Shown here: one piece after another, positions 60,746 through 62,989 of the stretch
Position numbering within the stretch: position 1 is the first letter of the stretch
How the letters are laid out: each line of letters starts with the position of its first letter
Assembly (NCBI RefSeq): GCF_040834005.1
Contig: NZ_CP162129.1
Location: 137,501-201,500 of the forward strand
Length of the DNA stretch: 64,000 nt
Reading direction: 5' to 3'
DNA from: Paenibacillus sp. PL2-23
GTDB taxonomy: Bacteria > Bacillota > Bacilli > Paenibacillales > Paenibacillaceae
Position numbers and translations under genes: made by a program
Notes under the pieces: generated by a model
What the model was told of the DNA's origin: nothing
Databases searched by the model: none
What the model saw: only the letters and a program-made list of their open reading frames with translations

Positions 60746-60796
60746 AGGATGGGGCGAGGTCGGGGCTTGGGAGAAGGAGTTGCGATAGAAAGAATA

Positions 60797-61062
60797 GTGA
60801 ATGAAATGAACGTGAAAGAAAAACATGAATGAAGCAAGAGTGAATGAAGCAGCTGTGAATGATACGAGCGTAAAAGATGCAAGAGTGTAAGAAATCGTGA
60901 AAGAAGCAAGCGTGAATAAAACGAACGTGAAAGAAACAGATATGAATGAAACAAGCGTGAATGAAGCAGGCGTGAATGAGACAGACGTTAATGAAACTAC
61001 CTTGAATGAAACAAACGTGAATGATAAAAATAAATACGCGAATGAAAATCAAAGCAAAGAAT
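60797..61062 (+). repeat. Degenerate 15-nt tandem repeat (minisatellite)
   Basis: About 17 imperfect copies of GTGAATGAAACGAAC run head to tail. In one plus-strand frame they read as NEASV / NETNV / KEASV pentapeptides with GTG, ATG or TTG repeatedly at the unit start, interrupted by a stop (near 60888) and indels; the last uninterrupted run ends NVNDKNKYANENQSKE then TGA. On the minus strand the same repeat is open as CFIHA-type repeats. It may be a decayed pentapeptide-repeat gene or a non-coding satellite. Confidence 0.7.
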
Positions 61063-61131: not shown

Positions 61132-61611
61132 ATGCATATTCAGATTGCGACCGTAGGGAAGCTGAAGGAGAAGTACCTGGTACTTGGCATCGCGGAATAT
61201 GCCAAGCGTCTCGGGCCTTACGTGAAGCTTACGCTCACGGAAGTGCCCGATGAGAAGGCGCCGGAGACGATGAGTCCGGCGGAGGAGATGATTGTTCGCG
61301 AGCGAGAGGGGGAGCGGCTTCTGGCGCAGCTGAAGCCGGACGCCCACGTCATCGCGCTCGCGATCGAGGGCGAGCTCTGGTCCAGCGAGGATCTCGCGGA
61401 CCAGCTCGATAAGTTAGCCACATATGGGCGGAGCCACGTGGCTTTCGTCATTGGCGGGAGCAACGGGCTCGCTCCCGTTGTCTTGAAGCGCGCCCAGCAG
61501 AAGCTGAGCTTTGGGCGCATGACCTTGCCGCACCAGTTGATGCGGCTGGTGCTGGTGGAGCAGATTTATCGGGCGGTGAAGATCAATCGGGGGGAACCGT
61601 ATCACAAATAG
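61132..61611 (+). CDS. rlmH: 23S rRNA (pseudouridine1915-N3)-methyltransferase RlmH
   Basis: RlmH (OrfX in staphylococci) is a SPOUT methyltransferase acting on 23S rRNA helix 69 in the assembled ribosome. The 159-residue protein starts [30 protein letters not shown] and has the trefoil-knot motif [12 protein letters not shown] and the C-terminus [33 protein letters not shown]. The last codons GAACCGTATCACAAATAG form the attachment-like sequence that is nearly repeated at 62972-62989. Confidence 0.97.
61594..61611 (+). repeat. Attachment-like direct repeat, left copy (3' end of rlmH)
   Basis: GAACCGTATCACAAATAG encodes EPYHK-stop of rlmH. Its near copy GAACCGTATCATAAATGA lies at 62972-62989. 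The staphylococcal SCC attachment site is the same part of the same gene (GAAGCATATCATAAATGA). Confidence 0.75.
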
Positions 61612-61714: not shown

Positions 61715-61743
61715 TTGACTTTCACATAGGCACATGCAATAAT
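61715..61743 (+). promoter_or_regulatory. Promoter of the tandem structured RNA
   Basis: TTGACT (61715-61720), exactly 17 bases, AATAAT (61738-61743): 5/6 and 5/6 matches. Transcription would start near 61750, about 60 bases before the first RNA domain. Confidence 0.75.
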
Positions 61744-61749
61744 AAGAAC

Positions 61750-62048
61750 AAACGTTCCTATTTATTTTCAAGTGTATCATCTTTTGTTCTTTTGCATAAG
61801 ATATATCTAAGGACGCGGCAGGTCACATTGAGCGCAAGCTCCTTAATATGTGGCAGTTCCCAGTTGGGAACGGGCTCCTCCCGCGTCTGATCGAGGCTTG
61901 ACATTCTAAGCAGTAAACTTTATTATTTAATCTAGGCGGCAGGTCACATTGAGCGATGAGCTCCTTTCTTGTGGCAGCACTCAGTAGAGTGTGGGCTCCT
62001 CCCGCCCTCGAACAAAAAGTTAAAGTAGCCTATAGGCTACTTTTTTTT
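61750..62048 (+). ncRNA. Small RNA with two tandem three-way-junction domains
   Basis: Domain A (61812-61887) has outer stem GACGCGG/CCGCGTC, an arm GTCACAT/ATGTGGC capped by GAGC-GCAA-GCTC, and a hairpin GTTCCC-AGTT-GGGAAC. Domain B (61935-62006) has GGCGG/CCGCC, GTCACA/TGTGGC, GAGC/GCTC and GCACTC-AGTA-GAGTGT. Between A and B the hairpin stem changes in several positions but stays paired, and an outer C-G becomes G-C, which is covariation. Single-stranded parts (CAG before the arm, GGGCTCCT after the hairpin) are conserved. A promoter precedes it and a palindromic terminator with eight T residues follows, so it is an independent unit. The 5' part has an extra AAGAACAAA/TTTGTTCTT pairing. 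RNA motifs associated with DUF3800 genes have been proposed; which one this matches is unknown. Confidence 0.72.
62022..62048. terminator. Bidirectional terminator shared by the RNA and the DUF3800 gene
   Basis: AAAGTAGCC/GGCTACTTT (62022-62030 with 62035-62043, loop TATA) followed by T residues on the plus strand and, on the minus strand, by TTAACTTTTTG. The DUF3800 stop codon overlaps its edge (62047-62049). Confidence 0.85.
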
Positions 62049-62853
62049 ATTGTGGTATGAATATGTGCTTATAGTTATCCTTGTTTGTGTATGGATGATA
62101 AAGTAGCCCTTTCCAATCCCATTTCGGAAATTGATAGTAGCAAGAGTCCACAACATTTTTGAAGCTTCTATAGTATGAGAAATTTGATGTGGTACAAGAA
62201 TAAATACCATAGTCTTTATTACATACTTTACAAGCAGTGCTTACATTATCTTGATAATCTGTCAATGAGCGAAGCGTAACACCAGACATAAAATCGGATA
62301 AGCCGAGGATTGAATGTGTTTCAGGATTAATCCACTTAGGTTTTGAATGTCTTGGGTGTTGCCCAGTTTGATATCTGGAGACGCTAGCAATATATTGTCG
62401 CAACGATTCTTGAGCTAGGGTGTCGGTATTACGGTCAATAAATAATTGAGCTCTGGAATTGGTTGACTTAAGAAATACGGATAATCGTTTAAACATTAAT
62501 CCGTACAAATAATTCATGAATTTTGTTCTGTCTATCATCCCAGCACCATTAGTTTCATGTTTGTTACATATCACTTGGGATACGATGTAGTTAGGACCGT
62601 GATTGTCGATACTACGAAGGAATTTACTAATAATTTTATCGTCTTTCTTTTGTGCTGATGAAAGTTTTTTCCACTCAAGTGGAGCTTTCATTCTCAACAC
62701 TTTATATTTATAAGTATCAATAGTGTTTACAAGCGAATTTACATCTTGTTCCAAAACGAGCACAGAAGTTACTATATAGAAATGGGAAGATCCAGGTATC
62801 CACGGTATGCCTTTATCTCCTGATTCTTCACAGAAAATATGCCAATTTGCCAT
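62047..62853 (-). CDS. DUF3800 domain protein (RNase H-like)
   Basis: A 268-residue protein starting MANWHIFCEESGDKG. The DUF3800 family has an RNase H-like fold with acidic residues in an N-terminal DESG motif (here CEESG, so Glu replaces Asp), a central ...FIDRNTD and a C-terminal ...LSDFMSG. All three are present (residues about 9-10, 150 and 198). A CKVCNKDYGIYSC stretch near the C-terminus could bind zinc. Function is not established; the fold and acidic triad suggest nucleic-acid cleavage. ATG 62853 has AAGGAG 7 bases upstream. Codon use is much more AT-rich than flanking genes. It converges on the structured RNA. Confidence 0.82.
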   Translation of the reverse strand: MANWHIFCEESGDKGIPWIPGSSHFYIVTSVLVLEQDVNSLVNTIDTYKYKVLRMKAPLEWKKLSSAQKKDDKIISKFLRSIDNHGPNYIVSQVICNKHETNGAGMIDRTKFMNYLYGLMFKRLSVFLKSTNSRAQLFIDRNTDTLAQESLRQYIASVSRYQTGQHPRHSKPKWINPETHSILGLSDFMSGVTLRSLTDYQDNVSTACKVCNKDYGIYSCTTSNFSYYRSFKNVVDSCYYQFPKWDWKGLLYHPYTNKDNYKHIFIPQ

Positions 62854-62949
62854 TAATATTCTCCTTAACATTTGCCTTTCTTTCAATTATAGTGTGTTAC
62901 CAAAATCTAGGCAACAAATAAAGTAAGAGTATAGAACCAAGAATGCAAA

Positions 62950-62971: not shown

Positions 62972-62989
62972 TGAACCGTATCATAAATG
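62972..62989 (+). repeat. Attachment-like direct repeat, right copy
   Basis: GAACCGTATCATAAATGA reads EPYHK-stop, a second copy of the rlmH end without the rest of the gene. It differs from the left copy by a C/T and in the stop codon. It agrees with the staphylococcal attB core at 16 of 18 positions. Confidence 0.75.

Follow-up and report, generated by a model that had tools for sequence, protein, structure and literature searches.

DUF3800-associated RNAs form several families in Rfam, the motifs of which were reportedly described in 2017, and to our knowledge no function has been assigned to them. DUF3800-I, DUF3800-VII and DUF3800-VIII were met in the present analysis, and DUF3800-IX is named in a passage of a published paper. 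Other described systems offer points of comparison. The criteria for type III toxin-antitoxin systems include RNA repeats located upstream of the toxin gene and co-transcribed with it (PMC8860590). In the AbiF/RCd22 pair of a C. difficile prophage, an RNA with two motif copies binds a toxic protein directly and thereby neutralises it (PMC12373285). TisB/IstR of E. coli is a LexA-linked toxin system with a constitutive RNA (PMC9040746). Finally, the att sites of SCC and ECC are centred on TATCATAA (PMC6222049).

The locus described here belongs to a 64,000-nucleotide stretch of Paenibacillus sp. PL2-23 (the window, taken at its full length) and combines two structured RNA domains with a DUF3800 gene that is convergent to (i.e., tail to tail with) the RNA pair (Table 1). 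As in AbiF/RCd22, which lies in a phage lysis region, a non-coding RNA carries two copies of one motif, but AbiF belongs to an unrelated protein family (Abi_2) and its RNA precedes the gene; neither LexA nor SOS is mentioned in the main text of that paper (PMC12373285). AbiF/RCd22 shows that an RNA-neutralised-protein design exists, in an unrelated family. TisB/IstR can be likened to the scheme proposed for the locus for its LexA link and its constitutive RNA, but in that system it is the toxin gene that LexA represses, and the target of the RNA is the toxin mRNA (PMC9040746).

Table 1. Features of the RNA–DUF3800 locus (window positions; a dot marks a feature given without strand).
Feature	Position	Strand	Remarks
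Left SCC-type att-like repeat, 3' end of rlmH	61594..61609	+	15/16 nt identical to 62973-62988
Promoter-like site of domain A, TTGACT-17-AATAAT	61715..61743	+	10/12
LexA/DinR-type box GAACAAACGTTC	61746..61757	.	GAAC-N4-GTTC; overlaps the point where transcript A is expected to begin
RNA domain A, three-way junction	61812..61887	+	R1 89.9 bits, itself a row of R1
Promoter-like site of domain B, TTGACA-17-TATTAT	61898..61926	+	11/12; 0/300 shuffles equal
RNA domain B, three-way junction	61935..62006	+	R1 81.3 bits, also a row of R1
Palindromic terminator	62022..62048	.	terminator-like on either strand; separates the RNA from the convergent gene
DUF3800 protein, 279 aa from TTG	62047..62886	-	predicted RNase HII-like fold
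Promoter-like site of the DUF3800 gene, TTGCCT-17-TATAAT	62886..62914	-	without LexA-type box
Right att-like repeat, contains TATCATAA	62973..62988	+	matches the left repeat

Domains A and B (72–76 nt) are homologous and each folds alone into a three-way junction, as a sequence-only reading of this DNA had proposed; the changes from GTTCCC/GGGAAC to GCACTC/GAGTGT and from C-G to G-C, to which that reading had drawn attention, are also present. The folding energy of domain A is -33.5 kcal/mol (z -3.47), and that of domain B, at -28.0 kcal/mol (z -1.07), lies within chance when domain B is taken alone. Since two copies in one locus yield little covariation, the case for the fold rests on relatives: the selected fold claimed by the sequence-only reading is borne out by them. 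When 11 domains were aligned with MAFFT and analysed with RNAalifold, 12 of the 20 pairs showed double changes and 98.2% of 220 cells held standard pairs, a value that fell to 31–54% in controls with slid partners. Four of the five measures of a shuffle test attained the observed value in 0/500 shuffles, and the fifth (further pair types) did so in 9/500. With two domains of a phage contig added, which were located with a sequence pattern, the 13 domains had standard pairs in 98.5% of 259 cells and double changes again in 12 of 20 pairs, the same four measures giving 0/500 and the fifth 19/500; the stems are therefore kept in the homologues, as the earlier reading had suggested checking. The P2 apical hairpin, which lies outside the pair counts, likewise keeps its pairing through changes. 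Because 11 of the 13 domains are rows of the RNA model R1, their R1 scores are no test; the remaining two, from the phage contig, did not enter the model, and their scores of 79.5 and 81.5 bits do provide one. A coding reading of a 67-aa frame over domain A was set aside, since covariation argues for RNA. Altogether, these sequence comparisons strongly support a real and selected two-domain structured RNA.

Copies of the cassette turned up in a small number of other bacteria and in a phage fragment. The convergent protein occurs in 3 of 295 genomes of the family and in 5 of 398 genomes of the class (E ≤ 1e-3), the window's own genome being included in both counts; the other class matches are an open copy in Peribacillus acanthi, a gene remnant in genome G343 (a match over 44 residues with an internal stop) and two distant DUF3800 genes (L008 and L009), in the vicinity of which R1 gives no match. 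A collection in which each of 84,980 species is represented by a single genome yielded four loci, all carrying two domains; that of Oceanobacillus halophilus is new, and the other three are copies already met in the family and class searches. From viral contigs, a DNA pattern scan returned 97 stretches, only one of which holds true domains, two in tandem, with a DUF3800 gene (64% identical) just beyond them. A profile scan of viral contigs recovered that same phage contig alone, and there was no find in a single-sequence protein search of viral contigs, in a protein search of plasmids and phages, or in a blastn search of the window RNA against plasmids and phages. Over 398 genomes of the phylum, R1 matched one, the window's own; among the matches listed for further viral loci (one further viral set comprised at least 120 stretches), scores were 15–19 bits with E ≥ 0.19, which we took as chance. 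The total is seven loci: six have two domains beside an open gene, and G343 has the gene remnant together with only one domain, which is incompletely paired in its outer stem and is possibly an A/B recombinant.

At the gathering threshold, Rfam matches nothing in the window but a tRNA. Below it, domain B aligns with the DUF3800-VII RNA (RF02967) at 15.4 bits (E 0.84), short of the gathering score of 36.2, and the junction letters AGG, CAGC and GUGGG(A/C)UCCU coincide; domain A is not listed for RF02967, nor is there a row for loci L003-L007. Both RNAs have in common the core AGG-P2-GGCAGC-P3-GUGGGAUCCU-P1. Moreover, R1, which was built without DUF3800-VII, gives its two best hits in 8.8 kb exactly at the DUF3800-VII RNAs of L438 (22.6 bits, E 1.9e-4) and L437 (21.4 bits, E 3.9e-4), and all 11 of its hits (E ≤ 1) in 100 viral loci are DUF3800-VII RNAs at gathering score, these loci not being independent as a pattern of the common core had served to select them. 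RF02967 exceeds its cut-off in 2 of 199 genomes of the phylum, in both of which the RNA is convergent to a DUF3800 gene; a DUF3800 gene was also detected near 3 of the 11 viral RNAs, and again all three are convergent, so that the arrangement of the window recurs in 5/5 DUF3800-VII loci with a gene found, out of 13 examined. DUF3800-VII departs from the window RNA in its single domain, in its longer lower stem and in the LexA-type box, found in 0/13 loci (with several near-copies) when the upstream 250 nt were searched, or 143 and 23 nt in two loci. Eight viral loci (L371, L340, L350, L351, L357, L422, L426 and L430) carry a DUF3800-VII RNA with no DUF3800 gene detected by profile, where the gene may be cut off by the stretch ends or missed by the profile. 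Two of them also have a Twister-sister ribozyme match (L350:1077-1147 and L351:11397-11467; 61.1 bits, gathering 34), which is on the other strand and some 1.4 kb away from the DUF3800-VII RNA.

Genes of PF12686 are present in 22 of 200 genomes of the class, and among 20 such loci scanned, three carry DUF3800-I (RF02969) and three DUF3800-VIII (RF03075). These too are small RNAs adjoining a DUF3800 gene, but they belong to other families and lie, in 5/6 cases, downstream of the gene and on its strand; of 24 DUF3800 loci, those with DUF3800-I and DUF3800-VIII included, none is matched by R1 up to E 10. In a tree of 33 proteins (with L172 entered as the longer piece of a broken frame), each of the four RNA types corresponds to one supported protein group, and a single clade of window-type and DUF3800-VII proteins is neither supported nor rejected (p-AU 0.16). 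Judged by sequence, RNA type follows protein clade, and the window RNA is a two-domain relative of DUF3800-VII lying below the Rfam thresholds. The hunch that Rfam DUF3800 motifs would be relevant was a good one, the neighbour being DUF3800 by its relatives and the RNA sharing the DUF3800-VII core.

As for the protein, the PF12686 gathering score of Pfam (21 bits) is reached neither by the window protein itself nor by L004, and it is reached by the 56% and 60% identical relatives L005 (34.7 bits) and L006 (32.4 bits), through which the window protein is assigned to DUF3800 by sequence. Its likelier start is the ATG at 62853 (MANWHIF), behind AAGGAG. The predicted structure is of medium quality, with a pLDDT of 69.5 and, by query, a Foldseek TM of 0.49, and is poor over residues 220–279; the model shows an RNase HII-like fold, with Argonaute PIWI domains as the next-ranking matches. 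Identity to the RNase HII / RNase H2 structures 1eke and 3puf is 11% and 6%, the Pfam HMM of the RNase HII family gives no match up to E 10, and a search by sequence for solved relatives returned none that was convincing. Acids occupy both positions 20 and 21 in 9/9 rows, and D151 and D198 are invariant; these residues may correspond to the four catalytic acids of RNase HII. At E 1e-5, PADLOC models match neither the window protein nor L006, and a word search of a literature collection found no paper naming DUF3800 with RNase HII. On this structural model, the DUF3800 protein is probably a nuclease.

The sequence-only reading had described one complete unit of about 300 nt, framed by the TTGACT-17-AATAAT promoter and a palindromic terminator. 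Both of these elements are there (the palindrome itself at 62022-62043, followed by the T run), but the single unit does not hold, as a stronger promoter stands directly before domain B, and the account had overlooked the GAAC-N4-GTTC box. In all six two-domain loci, domain B is preceded by TTGAC(A/G), a spacer of 16–18 nt and a -10 element ending 5–9 nt before the outer stem; equally good sites arose in 0, 33, 13, 1, 2 and 1 of 300 shuffles, the weak scores being those of C. panacarvi (33/300) and C. thermotolerans (13/300). No close promoter was seen before domain A in the seven loci, where 45 to 277 of 300 shuffles were as good. What stands upstream of domain A, at 37–96 nt in 5/7 loci, is GAAC-N4-GTTC, the LexA operator of B. 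subtilis (PMC4234289). These five boxes, all within 120 nt before A, are the only such sites in the 100.8 kb around the seven loci; none precedes domain A in P. acanthi and O. halophilus (2/7 loci), so that LexA control is not universal.

The genome of the window has 63 palindromic GAAC-N4-GTTC sites in 5.48 Mb. Two boxes precede the lexA gene of this genome, one of them having the 12-mer of the window box, and an impB/mucB/samB-family polymerase gene has two boxes as well; in G343, the 12-mer of its own box is likewise identical to one of two before its lexA, and C. panacarvi has a LexA-type box at recA. As a sequence feature, the LexA-type box in 5/7 loci is a well-supported novelty of this kind of RNA–protein pair. 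The promoter and box sequences further suggest that the RNAs are transcribed and that domain A may be under LexA control; together, the domain B promoters and the boxes before domain A would give an SOS-dependent A and a constitutive B in the window, two Cohnella species and the phage contig, G343 being left aside for its single domain. Near other DUF3800 genes, six LexA-type boxes occur in 5/24 loci (83.2 kb), more than the approximately one expected at the rate of the window genome. One of them, with a second near-box, precedes a YolD gene (Pfam) adjoining a DUF3800-I locus (L163:2374-2701), and none of the others was seen upstream of a recognised RNA.

In the window, a second copy of the rlmH 3' end lies 1379 bp downstream, and the RNAs and the DUF3800 gene are enclosed between the two. 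Such a repeat, with TATCATAA, is also found in SCC and ECC (PMC6222049), but unlike these the unit has no ccr recombinase and measures only about 1.38 kb. Among ORFs of at least 60 aa, none between the repeats is of ccr serine recombinase size, the DUF3800 gene being the largest, so that the unit is either a remnant or moved passively. In the genus, 23 of 51 genomes, the window's included, have the right flank; no empty rlmH site came to light, the stretches of five relative loci examined hold no rlmH frame, and the other five two-domain loci are not surrounded by direct repeats (14 nt, at most one mismatch). Since a second, different DUF3800 gene, that of L180 (G462:C1:1434508-1435083), also directly follows rlmH (end GCCGTATCATAAGTGA), cassettes with DUF3800 genes may have used rlmH as an insertion point more than once. 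Degenerate repeats of about 12 nt (AATGAAAC.AACGTG-like) were noticed by eye upstream of rlmH in the window (60780-61060).

Among the relatives, defence-like neighbours, picked by eye and without a control set, include an adjoining nSTAND3-Mrr gene, a SIR2-HerA pair within 5 kb, an adjoining N6-methyltransferase with a type I specificity protein and an adjoining PD-(D/E)XK nuclease with a serine recombinase; phage endolysin and holin genes are also found nearby. Near the C. panacarvi copy, the nSTAND3-Mrr protein (L010:9721-12063) is the PADLOC candidate PDC-S73, and a 477-aa protein (L010:13253-14686) has a weak PDC-M36A match. In P. acanthi, a long near-perfect inverted repeat (L006:1337-1390) separates the serine recombinase from the DUF3800 gene and gives sub-threshold microRNA matches in Rfam.

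Considering what is directly visible, i.e., the conservation of the fold, the gene pairing, the promoters and the box as sequences, the predicted protein fold, the att-like repeats and the neighbours, we propose, with confidence evenly divided between right and wrong, a two-component mobile cassette in which a structured RNA binds and restrains a DUF3800 nuclease, B being constitutive and A raised by SOS. A DUF3800 protein with an RNase HII-like fold would be paired with its own structured RNA: domain B would be a constitutive small RNA made from a sigma-70 promoter and starting at the outer stem, while domain A (or A and B by read-through) would come from the promoter under the LexA-type box, its level going up on DNA damage. 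The RNA would bind the protein via the conserved junction (AGG, CAG, GGG(C/A)UCCU) and keep the nuclease in check in the manner of RNA antitoxins, SOS induction raising the RNA under conditions of damage or prophage induction in which the nuclease would otherwise be set free. We infer the RNA–protein binding, the nuclease activity and its target, and an inhibitory sign of the RNA is suggested by analogy. An SOS rise of the inhibitor only would be an odd design for a suicide system, as the gene is without a LexA-type box of its own. A narrower version, to which we incline less than to its negation, would have the nuclease held by the constitutive RNA B and re-set by the LexA-controlled paralogous RNA A, in a minimal cassette moving between defence islands, the rlmH att site and phage.

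The main rival to an RNA-restrained nuclease is that the RNA is an obligate cofactor or guide, activating or aiming the RNase H-fold nuclease as in RNA-guided nucleases. The RNase HII-like fold, for which Argonaute PIWI domains rank second, the agreement between RNA type and protein clade, and the DUF3800 accessory proteins of some CRISPR loci (PMC10910872; PMC12669027) all speak for it, but no variable guide stretch is apparent in 82–85 nt that are mostly paired or conserved, with short hairpin loops, and each locus has two similar domains; we hold this role to be unlikely, if the strongest of the alternatives. Improbable in our view is that the domains are SOS-linked trans-acting small RNAs for mRNAs of the host or the element, with the DUF3800 gene as a passenger or processing enzyme: promoter-like sites and a terminator of their own and the LexA-type box would suit such RNAs, but their joint presence and joint decay with one protein clade would not, and apart from the junction letters no long single-stranded stretch is conserved as a seed. 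Antisense pairing as a means of controlling the DUF3800 mRNA in cis, to which the convergent genes and shared terminator might point, was rejected as very improbable, because transcript overlap is expected at the terminator alone and the duplex energy with the mRNA start resembles that of shuffles in 5/6 loci (87–156 of 200 as low), C. thermotolerans being the sole locus with a low value (4/200 shuffles as low). Lastly, a true type III toxin-antitoxin system, as the sequence-only reading had been reminded of by a repeated structured RNA next to a nuclease-like protein, is scarcely credible as membership, since the RNA lies on the opposite strand with its own promoter-like sites instead of being co-transcribed upstream in an operon, the protein is DUF3800 by its relatives L005 and L006 and not a ToxN/CptN/TenpN-type endoribonuclease, and the repeat is about 82 nt long with a three-way junction; by analogy, the pair may work like type III, the RNA restraining the nuclease.

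Returning to the RNA-restrained nuclease, RNA–protein pairing of this kind is already known, and to it the two-domain version described here adds the LexA-type box as a novelty. We know of no earlier SOS-controlled RNA partner of a DUF3800 protein; if the narrower version is true, the locus would be the first, and a test case for the role of DUF3800-associated RNAs. The LexA-type box on one of the two RNA copies is a regulatory clue to the timing of the system's action. In this compact form, the RNA is linked to a single protein clade with a concrete predicted biochemistry (RNase HII-like), and the whole system fits a 1.4-kb piece of DNA, open to bench testing.
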